From Alphaproteobacteria bacterium (GTDB lineage: Bacteria > Pseudomonadota > Alphaproteobacteria > UBA6615): a stretch of 64,000 nt of DNA. A program made the translations under genes and the position numbers. The notes below the pieces were generated by a model, which searched no databases, was not told where the DNA came from, and saw only the letters and a list, made by a program, of their open reading frames with translations. Below are positions 35,282 to 42,802 of the stretch, piece by piece; within the stretch, counting starts at the first letter, position 1, and each line of letters starts with the position of its first letter. The stretch is from NCBI GenBank assembly GCA_002722515.1, contig PBMH01000024.1, positions 1 through 64,000 of the forward strand, given 5' to 3'.

Positions 35282-35893
35282 ATGCAAATGTCCGGCGAGT
35301 ACAAAATAAATGCACCCCGCGAGAAGGTTTGGGCCGGGCTCAATGACCCGGACGTCCTAAAACTTTCTATACCTGGTTGCGAACAGATCGAGCAGACTTC
35401 CGAAACCTCCTTTGAGGCCCAGGTCACGGCGAAGGTCGGCCCGGTAAAAGCAAAATTCAACGGCGCAGTGGAGCTAACCGATATTGATGCGCCAAATGGA
35501 TATCGTATTTCGGGCGAAGGCAAGGGCGGTGCTGCAGGATTCGCTAAGGGCGGCGCAAACATTAAACTCGAGGAGGATGGTGACGGTACCCTGCTCAAAT
35601 ATGAAGTTGACGCGCAGGTTGGCGGAAAACTAGCACAACTGGGTGCACGCCTGATCGATGGCACCGCAAAGAAGATGGCCTCGCAGTTTTTTGAGAATTT
35701 CGCCGAAGCGGTTACCAACAATGATTCGATCGACCGACCTGACGAGGAAACCAGCGACACTGGTTCTACGGCCCCGCCGCCGTCATCGGAAAACACGGCC
35801 CCCACAGGAAAGGCAATTCCAAAGGTGGACGCAAAAATATTGGCCCTCGTGCTCATTGTAGCCGCCGTCGCCCTCTACGCGCTTTTTGGTTGA
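35282..35893 (+). CDS. coxG: CoxG-like SRPBCC protein with C-terminal TM anchor
   Basis: MQMSGEYKINAPREKVWAGLNDPDVLKLSIPGCEQIE...GGAAGFAKGGANIKLEEDGDGTLLKYEVDAQVGGKLAQLGARLIDG; C-terminal hydrophobic helix. Confidence 0.92.
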   Translation: MQMSGEYKINAPREKVWAGLNDPDVLKLSIPGCEQIEQTSETSFEAQVTAKVGPVKAKFNGAVELTDIDAPNGYRISGEGKGGAAGFAKGGANIKLEEDGDGTLLKYEVDAQVGGKLAQLGARLIDGTAKKMASQFFENFAEAVTNNDSIDRPDEETSDTGSTAPPPSSENTAPTGKAIPKVDAKILALVLIVAAVALYALFG

Positions 35894-36055: not shown

Positions 36056-36523
36056 ATGCCCACCGTATCCATGACGGTGAATGGAAAATCCGTTTCGGCC
36101 GACGTCGAGTCACGGACACTTCTCGTTCAGTACCTTCGCGAACATCTTGGCCTAACCGGCACCCATGTTGGTTGTGACACTAGCCAATGCGGGGCGTGTG
36201 TAGTTCACGTAAATGGTGAATCTCTCAAGTCTTGTACCGTTCTCGCAGCCCAGGTCGAGGGGGCTGACCTGACCACCATCGAAGGTCTCGCCAATGGTGA
36301 CGAACTGCACCCAATGCAGGAAGCGTTTCGTGAAAACCACGGGCTGCAGTGCGGCTTCTGTACTCCCGGTATGGTGATGAGCGCACTGGACCTCGTTCAA
36401 AAGAATTCTGATCCCAGCGAACAAGATGTCCGCGAATGGCTTGAGGGAAACCTCTGCCGCTGCACCGGCTACCACAATATCGTAAAGTCTATTCTCGCCG
36501 GCGCCCAAGCACTGAAGGGTTAG
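36056..36523 (+). CDS. coxS: CO dehydrogenase-type small subunit (2x [2Fe-2S])
   Basis: [47 protein letters not shown]. Confidence 0.95.
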
Positions 36524-36527
36524 CACG

Positions 36528-36893
36528 GTGACCGGAACGGGCATCGGCGCTTCCATCAAGCGGGTTGAGGACCAGCGCTTCCTCACGGGCAACGGACACT
36601 ACACCGACGACATCAACCGTCCAGGCCAAGGCTACGCTTGGATTCTGCGATCGCCCCGCGCAGACGACCTACCTAACTTTTTAGTTACAACCCAAAGCGT
36701 CATGGGCGCCTCGAACCCACTTGAGGTAAAGGGCGTAGGCGAAGTGGGTGCGATTGGTTCACCTCCCGCCGTAGTAAACGCCATTCTTGACGCACTGGCA
36801 CCACTCGGTGTCGAAGATATTTCAATGCCCGCAACACCTAACAAGGTGTGGCAAGCCATCCATGATTCCAGTGTCCGCCAGGCGGCGGGATAA
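36528..36893 (+). pseudogene. coxL: Internally deleted CO dehydrogenase-type large subunit (121 aa, in frame)
   Basis: N-terminus (GIGASIKRVEDQRFLTGNGHYTDDINRPGQGYAWILRSP) runs directly into a CoxL C-terminus (RADDLPNFLVTTQSVMGASNPLEVKGVGEVGAIGSPPAVVNAILDALAPLGVEDISMPATPNKVWQAI); the central ~650+ residues are missing. Confidence 0.88.
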
Positions 36894-36914: not shown

Positions 36915-37712
36915 ATGTACGAATTCAATTACCAGAAGGCAAACTCCGCGGCCGATGCCGTACAGGCCGTAAATTCCTCTGACGACGGACAGTTTCTCGC
37001 GGGAGGCATGACCCTAATCCCAACCATTAAACAGCGCCTAGCCCAGCCATCCGATCTGATCGACCTTGCAGGCATCAACGACCTCGTTGGAGTAGAGGAA
37101 GGTGAGGGCTCAGTTACAATCAAAGCCATGACGCGCCACGTCGATGTCGCAAACAACGACATCGTCAAATCAAAGATTCCCGCTCTCGCGAACCTTGCTG
37201 ATAATATAGGCGACCCTCAGGTGCGTAATCGCGGTACAATCGGCGGCTCACTAGCCAACAACGACCCCGCGGCCGACTATCCCGCGGCCGTTCTTGGCCT
37301 AAACGCTACGATTATTACGAACACGCGCGAGATCATCGCCGAGGATTACTTCGACGGCATGTTCACCACATCCCTTGAAGAAGGCGAACTGGTCACAGCT
37401 GTCCGGTTTCCCATCCCCGATAAAGCCGCCTACACCAAGTTCCCCAACCCGGCATCACGTTATGCACTTGTGGGTGTAATGGTCGCACAGACCAACGGCG
37501 AGATACGGGTCGCCGTAACCGGAGCAGGACAGGACGGCGTGTTCCGGGCAAGCGATATTGAAAGTGCACTGTCGGGTAGCTGGACTGTGGACGCCGCCAA
37601 AGACGTAAAGATGTCTGATGAAGGGTTAAACTCCGATATCCACGCGTCTGCCGATTATCGTGCCCATCTGATATCGGTTATGGCGAGCCGTGCAGTAGCT
37701 GCCGCAGGCTAA
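36915..37712 (+). CDS. coxM: CO dehydrogenase-type medium (FAD) subunit
   Basis: FAD motif AGGMTLIPTIKQRL, IGDPQVRNRGTIGGSLANNDPAADYPAAVLGL. Confidence 0.94.
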   Translation: MYEFNYQKANSAADAVQAVNSSDDGQFLAGGMTLIPTIKQRLAQPSDLIDLAGINDLVGVEEGEGSVTIKAMTRHVDVANNDIVKSKIPALANLADNIGDPQVRNRGTIGGSLANNDPAADYPAAVLGLNATIITNTREIIAEDYFDGMFTTSLEEGELVTAVRFPIPDKAAYTKFPNPASRYALVGVMVAQTNGEIRVAVTGAGQDGVFRASDIESALSGSWTVDAAKDVKMSDEGLNSDIHASADYRAHLISVMASRAVAAAG

Positions 37713-37885: not shown

Positions 37886-38809
37886 TTGAGCAGTATACCT
37901 GAGAACGTAGAAAGCACCCTCGATCTACTTGCCACTGGCAACTACGTGCCAGATCGCAGCCTTTCGACGGCTATTTATTTGTCACTGAGACTCGGCCGCC
38001 CTCTTTTCCTTGAAGGAGAAGCCGGAGTCGGCAAGACCGAGATCGCCAAAGTTCTGGCAGAAACACTCGGCCGTCGCCTCGTACGCCTGCAGTGTTACGA
38101 GGGCCTCGATGTCGCGTCAGCTGTATATGAGTGGAATTACTCCGCACAGATGATCGAGATAAGGTTGGCCGAAGCAGAGGGTGCAGCCGATCGCGAACGG
38201 CTAACGAAAGATATCTTTTCCAATCAGTTCCTAATCCATCGCCCCCTCCTGCAGGCACTAGACCCCGCCGCCGATGGCCCACCTGTGCTCCTGATCGATG
38301 AGCTTGACCGCACTGACGAAGCCTTCGAGGCCTACCTGCTTGAGATCCTGTCGGACTTCCAGATAACCATCCCTGAATTAGGAACGGTGCGAGCAGAAAA
38401 ACCACCAATTGTAATCATCACTTCAAACCGCACTCGAGAGATCCACGATGCGCTAAAGCGGCGCTGTTTCTATTATTGGGTCGATTATCCTGATGCTACC
38501 CGCGAACTGGAGATTCTCGCGATCAAGGCACCCCAAGCGAACGAACGCCTCTCTCGCCAAGTGGTTGATTTTATTCAAAATCTGCGCACTATGGATTTGT
38601 TCAAGGTGCCGGGTATCGCTGAAACAATCGACTGGGCGTCTGCCCTACACCAGCTCGACATTATTGAACTGACCCCTGATGCGATAGACGACACACTCGG
38701 CGTCCTACTGAAATACCAAGACGATATCGCGAAGATCCGCGGCAGCGAGGCTGCAAGGATCTTGGATGAAGTCAAAAGTGAGGTCGCCCTCACCCAGGTT
38801 GCGACGTAG
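37886..38809 (+). CDS. coxD: MoxR-family AAA+ ATPase (CoxD-like)
   Basis: Walker A GEAGVGKTEIAKVLAE, Walker B VLLIDELDRTDEAFEAYLLE; TTG start. Confidence 0.9.
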   Translation: MSSIPENVESTLDLLATGNYVPDRSLSTAIYLSLRLGRPLFLEGEAGVGKTEIAKVLAETLGRRLVRLQCYEGLDVASAVYEWNYSAQMIEIRLAEAEGAADRERLTKDIFSNQFLIHRPLLQALDPAADGPPVLLIDELDRTDEAFEAYLLEILSDFQITIPELGTVRAEKPPIVIITSNRTREIHDALKRRCFYYWVDYPDATRELEILAIKAPQANERLSRQVVDFIQNLRTMDLFKVPGIAETIDWASALHQLDIIELTPDAIDDTLGVLLKYQDDIAKIRGSEAARILDEVKSEVALTQVAT

Positions 38810-38814
38810 GCGCC

Positions 38815-40122
38815 GTGTCCGAGAAAGCCATTCCAAACGAGGCTCGCCCAGCCATTAAGGCCAAGGCAAAGCTCGACGATATCAACGACGATACAAACGA
38901 AGGACCGAGCAAGCTCGCAAACAACATCATGCACTTTGCGCGTGTTCTTCGTGCCGCTGGACTTCCCGTGGGCCCAGGGAAGGTGATCGAGGCCGTCAAC
39001 GCCGTTGAGACGGTGGGGCTAACTCATCGAGATGACTTCTACTGGGCACTGCACGCGGTTTTTGTGAACCGGCGCGACCAACGCGAGATTTTCGATCAGG
39101 CCTTCCACGTCTTTTGGCGCAATCCAAAATTTCTAGAGCGGATGGCCTCTCTGGTATTGCCCTCTTTTGTCGATCCAGAAGCAACACAGAATGCCGAGGA
39201 AATGAATCGGCGACTAGCGGATGCCCTTAAACAGGAGAATCTAGATTCTCCCGGCGAGACCGAAGGCGATCATGATGATGAGGAACCAGAGATAACAGTC
39301 GATGCGGTAATGACCTTCTCGGCCAATGAAGTCTTGCAACAAACAGATTTCGAAAAGATGTCAAACGAAGAACTAGAGGCCGCCAAACGCGCTATCGCCC
39401 GCATGCAACTGCCAATCATGGAGGTACCAATCCGGCGTTTTCGTCGGAACGCCCGCGGCGAACGGATTGACATGCGCGCTACGCTACGTGCATCCCTACG
39501 CGGCGGTGGCGGGTCGGTACCGCTGCAATACCGTAGCCGCCAGCGCCGCCACCCCCCGTTGGTCGTATTATGCGACATATCCGGTTCAATGAGTCGGTAT
39601 TCCCGCATGATCCTTCATTTCATGCATGCAGTGACAAACGACCGCGACCGCGTGCACACCTTCCTATTCGGTACTCGGCTTACAAACGTCACCCGTCAGC
39701 TTCGCTATAGGGATGTTGACGAGGCACTTGATCGCGTGGCCGAGGCGGTCGACGACTGGTCCGGAGGCACCCGAATCGGACACGCCCTCCATGATTTTAA
39801 TACCAGTTGGTCACGGCGAGTATTGGGCCAAGGCGCAGTCGTCTTGCTCATCACCGACGGCCTCGATCGAGATGCGGCCGATGGTCTTGATACAGAGATC
39901 GAACGCCTCCACATGTCCTGCCGCCGCTTGATCTGGCTTAACCCGCTCCTACGTTATAATCGTTACGAACCGAAGTCTCTAGGCGCTCGGGCTATGCTGC
40001 CGCATACTGACGAGTTCCGGTCGATCCATAACCTGCAGAGCCTAGAGCAACTCGCAGAAGCTTTGTCCCGAAAGGATTGGCATGGAACCTTCCAAACATT
40101 ATTCAATCAGGAGGCTGCGTAG
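38815..40122 (+). CDS. coxE: VWA-domain protein (CoxE-like)
   Basis: PPLVVLCDISGSMSRYSRMILHFMHAV MIDAS; downstream of coxD. Confidence 0.9.
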   Translation: MSEKAIPNEARPAIKAKAKLDDINDDTNEGPSKLANNIMHFARVLRAAGLPVGPGKVIEAVNAVETVGLTHRDDFYWALHAVFVNRRDQREIFDQAFHVFWRNPKFLERMASLVLPSFVDPEATQNAEEMNRRLADALKQENLDSPGETEGDHDDEEPEITVDAVMTFSANEVLQQTDFEKMSNEELEAAKRAIARMQLPIMEVPIRRFRRNARGERIDMRATLRASLRGGGGSVPLQYRSRQRRHPPLVVLCDISGSMSRYSRMILHFMHAVTNDRDRVHTFLFGTRLTNVTRQLRYRDVDEALDRVAEAVDDWSGGTRIGHALHDFNTSWSRRVLGQGAVVLLITDGLDRDAADGLDTEIERLHMSCRRLIWLNPLLRYNRYEPKSLGARAMLPHTDEFRSIHNLQSLEQLAEALSRKDWHGTFQTLFNQEAA

Positions 40123-40469
40123 TGAGTGAAACAGTGATCGACCTGCACGCTCTGAACCATGACGACGTCGTCGAGAAGGCTGCGGCATGGCGAGAAACTG
40201 GAAAAAAAGTCGCGCTTGCCACCGTTATTGCCACATGGGGGTCGTCCCCCCGTCCTGTGGGCAGCCAACTAGCCGTCGATGAAGACGGCAACATGATAGG
40301 TTCTGTCTCCGGAGGCTGCATCGAGGGGGCCGTGGTGCATGAGGCGCAAGAAGTCATGTCGGACGGTAAGCCACGATTGCTCGATTTCGGTGTTTCCAAC
40401 GAAATGGCCTGGGAGGTCGGCCTCGCCTGCGGTGGCAAGGTCGAGGTCTGGGTCGAACGGCTGGACTGA
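40122..40469 (+). CDS. XdhC-family N-terminal domain protein
   Basis: ATWGSSPRPVGSQLAVDEDGNMIGSVSGGCIEGAVV; GTG at 40122 overlaps the coxE stop and is preferred over the ORF start at 40077. Confidence 0.88.
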   Translation: MSETVIDLHALNHDDVVEKAAAWRETGKKVALATVIATWGSSPRPVGSQLAVDEDGNMIGSVSGGCIEGAVVHEAQEVMSDGKPRLLDFGVSNEMAWEVGLACGGKVEVWVERLD

Positions 40470-40475
40470 GCCAAC

Positions 40476-41168
40476 ATGCGCCCCGAAACACTCGTATCCC
40501 TACTAGCCGCACGCGCCTCAAAACAGCAGGTTGCGCTGGTATCACACCTCGAGACCGGTGAGCAGACACTGGTGTTTCATGATCGAACGGCGGGCGACCT
40601 CGAGCTCGATGAGACAGCCATTTCCGCAGCACGCAACGCACTGAACGACGACAAGTCGGGGCGACTTCAGACGGGCAACACACCCCTGTTTGCCCAAGTA
40701 TTCAACCCGCCCAAGAGGATGATCATTGTAGGTGCGGTCCATATCGCACAACCTCTCGTCATCCTCAGCCAAACATCGGGCTACGAGACCATCATCGTTG
40801 ACCCGCGCGGCGCGTTCGCCACGCGTGACCGGTTCCCGGGTGTAACTATGAGCGAAGACTGGCCGGACGATGCACTGAAAAACATGGCAATTGATAACCG
40901 GACAGCAATTGTTACGCTCACCCATGATCCAAAACTTGACGACCCAGCACTACGTATTGCTCTGCGTTCTGAAGCTTTCTATGTTGGGTCCCTAGGCAGC
41001 AAACGCACCCATGCGGGACGCGTCGAGCGGTTAACCGAGGCCGGTTATACTGGCGAAGAAATCGAGCGCATCCACGCCCCCATTGGCCTCGACATCAATG
41101 CGAAGAGCCCGGCTGAAATAGCGGTTTCAATCATGGCACAGATCACCCAGATCTTGCGCAACGCATGA
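40476..41168 (+). CDS. XdhC-family C-terminal (Rossmann) domain protein
   Basis: MIIVGAVHIAQPLVILSQTSGYETIIVDPRGAFATRDRFPG, YVGSLGSKRTHAGRVERL, IHAPIGLDINAKSPAEIAVSIMAQI. Confidence 0.9.
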   Translation: MRPETLVSLLAARASKQQVALVSHLETGEQTLVFHDRTAGDLELDETAISAARNALNDDKSGRLQTGNTPLFAQVFNPPKRMIIVGAVHIAQPLVILSQTSGYETIIVDPRGAFATRDRFPGVTMSEDWPDDALKNMAIDNRTAIVTLTHDPKLDDPALRIALRSEAFYVGSLGSKRTHAGRVERLTEAGYTGEEIERIHAPIGLDINAKSPAEIAVSIMAQITQILRNA

Positions 41169-42802
41169 AGTTTGGACCCATCCCTACGACACAGGCTGAA
41201 GGTGCTGTGCTCGCTCACGGTCAGACCATGGGCGGACGCCGATTTCGTAAGGGGCATGTTCTTGCCCCCTCGGACATCGAACATTTCGTAGCGAACGATG
41301 TTCACGAGGTTACGGTTGCGCTCCTCGAATCGGACGATGTTGACGAGAATTCTGCTGCGCTTCGGCTTGCTGAGGCAGCAGTAGGACTTGGGGTTCGCCC
41401 AGGTATCGCGAGAACCGGGCGCGTCAACCTATTCGCACGACATGCTGGCCTAATAATGCTCAACGAGACCACGATAAATAATGTGAATAGGATCGATGAA
41501 GGAATAACAATCTCTACCCTGCATCCGCTGGACCGTGTGAACGAAGATCAGGTCGTCGCCACCATTAAAATAATTCCATTTGCGGTCTCGGAAACTGCAT
41601 TGCGAGCGACCGAAACAATTGCGGCAGGTCACCCGATAACGATTCGCGAATATCGCCCCCGCAGGGTGGGTCTGATTCAGTCCAATCTTCCTGGTTTGCC
41701 CAATAAGGTCCTAATTAAGGCAGAGAATGTTGTTCGCAAACGCGTCGAGGCACTGGGCAGCGAGCTATCGCCTCCGGTAACAGTGGATCATAACGAAATC
41801 TCTATAAAGAGCGCCTTGCTCGGTCTCATCGGAAACAGTACGGATCTCATCCTAATAGTAGGCGCTTCAGCAACCACCGACCGCCGCGACGTAATTCCGA
41901 CTGCAATTACCCAGGCAGGTGGTACGATTGAGCATTTCGGGATGCCGGTAGATCCCGGTAACCTGACCCTAATAGGCCGGATTGGCGAAACCCCAATCCT
42001 TGCGCTACCGGGTTCAGCTCGTTCCCCTAGGCCCGGCGGAAACGACCTCATTCTTGAACGGCTTATAGCTGACATTCCAATCGACGGTGAGCAAATCATG
42101 GGCCTCGGCGTCGGAGGCTTGCTTAAGGAAATCCCCTCGCGCCCTCTCCCCCGTGCACAGGCTGCACCCCGTGCCCGGCAATACAACGATACACCCGCAA
42201 ATTTCGGTGCAATAATTCTCGCCGCCGGTCAGTCTCGGCGTATGGGAAAGAGCAACAAACTTTTGATTGAGGTGAATGGGAAGGCAATGGTCAGTCACGC
42301 GGTCGACGCGGCACGCGACGCCGGCGCATCACCCGTAATAATTGTAACGGGGCACGAGCAGGAAGAAGTGGTGCGCGCCGTCGGACATGACGCAATATTC
42401 GTTCACAATCCCCACTATACGAATGGTCTCAGCACTTCGCTGAGGGCGGGGCTCTCTGCTATCCCGGATTATTGCAGCGGCGTCTTGGTTACACTCGGCG
42501 ACATGCCGCAAGTAAGAGCTGATCATCTACGGCGGCTCGCCGCCGCTCATGACCCAAACGAGGGTCATCTAATTTGCGTTCCAACAGCGGGGGGGAAACG
42601 CGGAAATCCAGTATTCTGGGATCGACGCCTCTTCGAGGTCATGTCCACATTAAGCGGTGATGTCGGAGCCAAACATCTGATTGGCGACTATGCCGACATG
42701 GTTATAGAGGTCCCGATGGATGACGATGCAGTCCTGGTAGATATCGATTCCCCAGAAGCATTGGAACGGATCATGGTAGATGATAACAGAGAATATTCGT
42801 AA
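41165..42802 (+). CDS. Molybdopterin-binding domain fused to MobA-like NTP transferase (Mo-cofactor maturation)
   Basis: N-terminal MoeA/CinA-like region (LILIVGASATTDRRDVIPTAI); C-terminal ILAAGQSRRMGKSNKLLIEVNGKAMVSHAV nucleotidyltransferase. Confidence 0.88.
   Translation: MKFGPIPTTQAEGAVLAHGQTMGGRRFRKGHVLAPSDIEHFVANDVHEVTVALLESDDVDENSAALRLAEAAVGLGVRPGIARTGRVNLFARHAGLIMLNETTINNVNRIDEGITISTLHPLDRVNEDQVVATIKIIPFAVSETALRATETIAAGHPITIREYRPRRVGLIQSNLPGLPNKVLIKAENVVRKRVEALGSELSPPVTVDHNEISIKSALLGLIGNSTDLILIVGASATTDRRDVIPTAITQAGGTIEHFGMPVDPGNLTLIGRIGETPILALPGSARSPRPGGNDLILERLIADIPIDGEQIMGLGVGGLLKEIPSRPLPRAQAAPRARQYNDTPANFGAIILAAGQSRRMGKSNKLLIEVNGKAMVSHAVDAARDAGASPVIIVTGHEQEEVVRAVGHDAIFVHNPHYTNGLSTSLRAGLSAIPDYCSGVLVTLGDMPQVRADHLRRLAAAHDPNEGHLICVPTAGGKRGNPVFWDRRLFEVMSTLSGDVGAKHLIGDYADMVIEVPMDDDAVLVDIDSPEALERIMVDDNREYS

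Follow-up and report, generated by a model that had tools for sequence, protein, structure and literature searches.

The form II (putative) carbon monoxide dehydrogenase operons, coxSLM, are the closest described systems to the locus reported here. The activity and function of form II enzymes are described as not settled in two reports (PMC13203968; PMC13240472). Form I enzymes are characterised in the first of these by the gene order MSL and an AYxCSFR loop. By sequence, the solved structures closest to the large subunits (CoxL) of the relatives considered below are those of the form I CO dehydrogenase of Afipia (Oligotropha) carboxidovorans (PDB 1n5w) and of the CoxL 8uem. Proteins resembling CoxL are numerous in ocean genomes, and one survey gives 119,560 of them in 26,690 genomes (PMC13203968). 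Expansions of CoxL-like proteins (COG1529), with many paralogs per genome, have been described in marine and sponge-associated bacteria (PMC8941161) and in SAR202 (PMC5395668), and the paralogs are presumed in these sources to be active on diverse organic substrates. The occurrence of lone coxL genes has been attributed to incomplete genomes in one survey of form I (PMC13240472).

In the current analysis a stretch of 64,000 nucleotides, referred to as the window, has been studied from an alphaproteobacterial genome (G000) available as a draft assembly of 58 contigs that is 83% complete. The window encodes an operon with the same gene order, subunit families and coxG, coxD, coxE, XdhC and Mob accessory genes as the form II operon (Table 1), and differs from it in that coxL is cut to 121 codons devoid of the Mo-cofactor domains. 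The order S-L-M is maintained on one strand, as coxS, coxL remnant and coxM. The intact orthologs in relatives carry the loop AYRGAGR, and neither they nor the window operon have the order MSL or the AYxCSFR loop of form I; in the window the region of the loop is deleted. On the basis of loop and gene order the operon is classified as a form II putative molybdenum hydroxylase and not as the CO dehydrogenase-type enzyme assumed in an earlier sequence-only reading of this DNA. Since it is not a demonstrated CO dehydrogenase, the deletion does not mean that a CO oxidizer has been lost.

Table 1. Features of the cox operon (nucleotide positions in the window)
Feature	Position	Strand	Evidence
coxG	35282..35893	+	Pfam COXG
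coxS, [2Fe-2S] small subunit, intact	36056..36523	+	Pfam Fer2, Fer2_2; own-branch omega 0.017
5' coxL remnant, codons 1-43	36528..36656	+	tblastn and codon alignment to intact coxL of relatives
Deletion junction, GCCCC microhomology	36653..36657	+	N side TCGCCCCATG; C side ATGCCCCGGGC/ATGCCCCGCGC in relatives
3' coxL remnant, last 78 codons and stop	36657..36893	+	comparison with intact coxL of relatives
coxM, FAD medium subunit, intact	36915..37712	+	Pfam FAD_binding_5, CO_deh_flav_C; own-branch omega 0.033
coxD-like AAA+ ATPase (maturation)	37886..38809	+	Pfam AAA_5; syntenic in relatives
coxE, VWA protein (maturation)	38815..40122	+	Pfam VWA_CoxE
XdhC/CoxI-domain protein, first half of split XdhC	40077..40469	+	Pfam XdhC_CoxI
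XdhC Rossmann-domain protein, second half of split XdhC	40476..41168	+	Pfam XdhC_C
Molybdopterin-binding / MobA-like nucleotidyltransferase fusion	41165..42802	+	Pfam MoCF_biosynth, NTP_transf_3

The open reading frame between coxS and coxM (36528-36893, plus strand) comprises 121 codons with a GTG start and no internal stop, in which codons 1-43 of coxL are fused in frame to its final 78 codons. The two parts match both ends of the 792-residue CoxL of relatives, and the loss thus amounts to 671 codons (792-121) or 2,013 bp. The sequence-only reading had recognised both the in-frame union of a CoxL N-terminus with a CoxL C-terminus and the absence of about 2 kb including the Mo-cofactor regions, and on both points it was right. 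In an intact CoxL of a relative the Pfam domains Ald_Xan_dh_C, MoCoBD_1 and MoCoBD_2, which together mark a complete large subunit, are assigned to residues 20-139, 155-404 and 432-720, respectively. No Pfam domain has been found in the 121-residue product; its 3' part retains the motif VKGVGEVG and lacks AYRGAGR and both the Mo-cofactor domains. An AlphaFold2 model of the product has a mean pLDDT of 35, which is weak evidence as the input alignment was shallow and residues 23-43 were misplaced in it by MAFFT. The remnant is most likely a dead gene, because both Mo-cofactor domains are gone and no confident fold was obtained. The start codon at 36528-36530 is GTG in the remnant and ATG in the coxL of all relatives from which the gene was extracted.

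The sequences on the two sides of the joint are TCGCCCC/ATG (N side) and ATGCCCC/GCGC (C side), with the bases GCCCC in common. The microhomology is of 5 nucleotides in the 5 of 9 relatives that use CCC for the C-side proline, and is shorter in the others; the 8-base match of the type CCCC(G/A)CGC suggested earlier is not what the comparison reveals. In each of the six genomes of the same genus (G001-G006; tblastn and codon alignment) a full-length coxL separates coxS from coxM, and it occupies the same locus in the three further family members with the gene extracted (G011, G022 and G019).

The 2,013-bp deletion is present in the assembly and, we infer, in the cells themselves. The search of the genome and its relatives for a full-length coxL, advised by the sequence-only reading, returned intact genes in the congeners; the remainder of the 83%-complete assembly contains no ortholog of the deleted segment, and relocation of the gene is rejected, as only paralogs of at most 51% identity match the missing part. 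A collapse of the assembly over a repeat, also considered in that reading, is unlikely: the breakpoint shares only 5 nucleotides, no longer repeat exists at the joint, and of the 246 matches to ORFs from syntenic stretches of six relatives across the window none but that of coxL shows a large internal loss. The same observations bear on a subtler alternative, namely that the deletion is not fixed and represents a chimeric contig, a library artefact or a minority allele, while most cells have the full-length gene. The draft state of the assembly would permit this, as would the fact that the remnant evolves just as the intact gene does, and a single-base frameshift in another coxL of this genome could point to sequence errors. 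However, the joint is exact, in frame and placed at a microhomology, no second such event occurs in the 246 matches and the coxL middle is absent from the assembly. A contig can also extend across a 5-nucleotide overlap only if reads or k-mers bridge it. We therefore regard an unfixed deletion as unlikely.

The frameshifted gene is a second coxL of this genome, on contig 13 at about 9720 (L170:4663-7154), which has its own S and M. The frameshift that splits it is consistent with one missing base and may reflect either a real change or an error in the sequence. A candidate for another broken coxL, in the relative G021 (L131), has been dropped as it contains several frameshifts that are probably sequencing or assembly errors.

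The age of the deletion was estimated with a codon model over seven genomes in which omega on the own branch of the window is compared with the background. The remnant has an omega of 0.035 on its own branch against a background of 0.058, and omega = 1 is rejected (2dL 29.9). Making the final 5% of the branch neutral costs 2dL 4.5, so that neutrality can extend over about 4% of the terminal branch at most. The cut in coxL is very recent, since constraint cannot have been lost before this last fraction of the branch. The flanking coxS and coxM are equally constrained on this branch (Table 1), and the dN/dS test proposed for them earlier thus reveals purifying selection. Amino-acid singletons are numerous in the cox genes (97, against 34+49 in G001+G003; 86 against 51+94 in the other genes), which suggested a faster evolution of these genes in this genome, and relaxed selection on the cox genes was considered for this reason. 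It is rejected because the codon model gives just as much synonymous change and no rise in omega. A recent transfer of the cox block is also rejected, as GC3 and pS match the remainder of the window.

The coxS, coxM and maturation genes are intact and collinear with those of relatives, as judged from Pfam matches and synteny and in agreement with the sequence-only reading. The two XdhC genes counted in that reading are a single XdhC split into a CoxI domain and a Rossmann domain, as in relatives. The first of these ORFs overlaps coxE, and its true start probably lies downstream of 40077. Among the four explanations that had been offered for the mini-gene a very recent deletion is the best supported, given the intact congeners, the microhomology and the codon model. 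The deletion being so recent, the intact sequences of the neighbours alone cannot tell their later fate, and it is too young to show retention of S and M after the loss in this lineage.

The genome encodes many more large subunits than partners for them, with 11 genes containing MoCoBD_1 (coxL) and 4 each with Fer2_2 (coxS) and FAD_binding_5 (coxM). Three other coxL genes (contigs 13, 10 and 7) have their own S and M. The eight orphans are of normal length and possess all the three large-subunit domains without a Fe-S or FAD domain; their neighbourhoods contain transporters and other metabolic genes. In a tree of CoxL, the operon CoxLs have as their sister group a clade that unites six of the orphans (contigs 8, 26, 54, 14, 50 and 49) with most orphans from other genomes, and the large subunits of this genome that have their own S and M stand apart. 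The orphan on contig 54 shares 78% identity with an orphan CoxL of another genome, which indicates that at least some orphans are old and conserved. Contig 1 (L169:3044-8015) carries two adjoining orphan CoxL-like genes, without S or M, that are 32-34% identical to the operon type.

The same surplus has been identified in the congeners counted, with 16-20 L against 5-7 S. The genome of L071, a 4.1-Mb chromosome record, has 42 coxL and 14 coxS, and that of L053 has 53 and 21. In 36 genomes of other families, matches to form-II-like coxL occur in all 14 that have an operon-type coxM and in 1 of the 22 that do not, a co-occurrence that may reflect lifestyle. Three members of the same family (G018, G020 and G023), all of them fragmented assemblies, have many coxL-like genes and no operon-type coxM.

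A class of cassettes without coxL has been identified among 80 related loci fetched with coxM. In 14 of these coxM comes immediately after coxS and the stretch of the locus contains no coxL, and in five (L051, L060, L068, L071 and L072) the remaining cassette coxG-S-M-D-E-xdhC-xdhC-mobA is complete, with no coxL remnant found in the S-M gap. The window operon would be functionally similar, but differs from these five in the 121-codon remnant still present between S and M. In a quick coxM tree the SM state requires nine changes, and well-supported branches make a minimum of five of them unavoidable, gains and losses not being told apart. The record that contains L071 is a 4.1-Mb sequence labelled a chromosome, so that incompleteness of the genome does not account for its missing coxL. 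Among the CoxLs of the five genomes with a full cassette the best match shares only 46-51% identity with the operon type, compared with 61-63% where coxL is in place; coxL has thus been lost rather than moved. The SM-only sister pairs L060/L071 and L068/L072 have a dN of 0.03-0.07 in coxS and coxM with dS saturated or nearly so, and the module thus remains under selection without a linked large subunit. L116 is a weak instance of the SM-only state, as its genome has a coxL some 7 kb off, slightly outside the locus. L113 and L115 have the rearranged orders S-M-L and L-M-S with divergent CoxLs (42-44%), a further hint that operons of this type may exchange their large subunit.

These cassettes are relevant to the view that the operon has merely lost its function, its sole enzyme being dead, coxS, coxM and the maturation genes starting to decay and the orphan CoxLs being unrelated. 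Such a view gains from the recency of the deletion, by which intact neighbours prove nothing alone, and from the smaller genome with fewer coxL than in the congeners counted (11 against 16-20). But coxL-less operons elsewhere outlast speciation with S and M under strong purifying selection, and the orphans, which are without S and M of their own, adjoin the operon CoxL in the tree; plain loss of function appears quite improbable. A new role for the 121-residue product as a retained mini-protein, or as partner of another large subunit as proposed earlier, is most improbable: its in-frame joint is expected for one-third of random deletions, its omega well below 1 is equally well explained by recency, no similar mini-gene was seen in the other genomes examined, and the lack of any Pfam domain, the loss of both Mo domains and the low pLDDT argue against a working protein.

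We favour, with moderate confidence, a real and very recent in-frame deletion of coxL in an operon whose small and medium subunits would constitute a shared electron-transfer module for orphan large subunits, which would make the large subunit of the operon itself dispensable. The catalytic body of coxL was most likely excised through replication slippage or end joining at GCCCC, and a joint in frame, which places no early stop codon ahead of coxM, would leave the downstream genes unaffected. A shared module calls for CoxLs without S and M of their own in the same genome, and the 11 large subunits beside 4 small and 4 medium ones include them. CoxS and CoxM would plausibly continue to serve these orphans, which would dock on them. 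The S, M and maturation genes are probably kept because eight large subunits elsewhere in the genome are without partners of their own. Orphan large subunits and recurrent coxL-less operons best explain the intact rest of the operon; neither these nor the form II assignment were known to the sequence-only reading, of which the recent deletion stands.

The deletion is best read as a fresh case of the recurrent loss of coxL from a shared small/medium-subunit module. More tentatively, form II cox operons in many Alphaproteobacteria may serve as shared S, M and maturation modules for interchangeable orphan large subunits, with repeated loss of coxL and the window caught just after one such loss. 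If S and M are common to many orphan large subunits, the number of coxL genes does not give the number of complete enzymes, a cox operon that looks incomplete in a metagenome-assembled genome need not be a gap, and a single operon could let a cell hydroxylate many different organic compounds.

No description of cox cassettes without coxL, or of a shared S/M module, was found in the open-access PMC literature. The accessible parts of the reports on marine and sponge-associated expansions (PMC8941161; PMC5395668) describe neither, unlike the present case, which resembles those expansions in the many paralogs per genome. The expansion of CoxL-like genes is thus already known, and the pattern of coxL-less cassettes and the proposed shared S/M module would be the new part.
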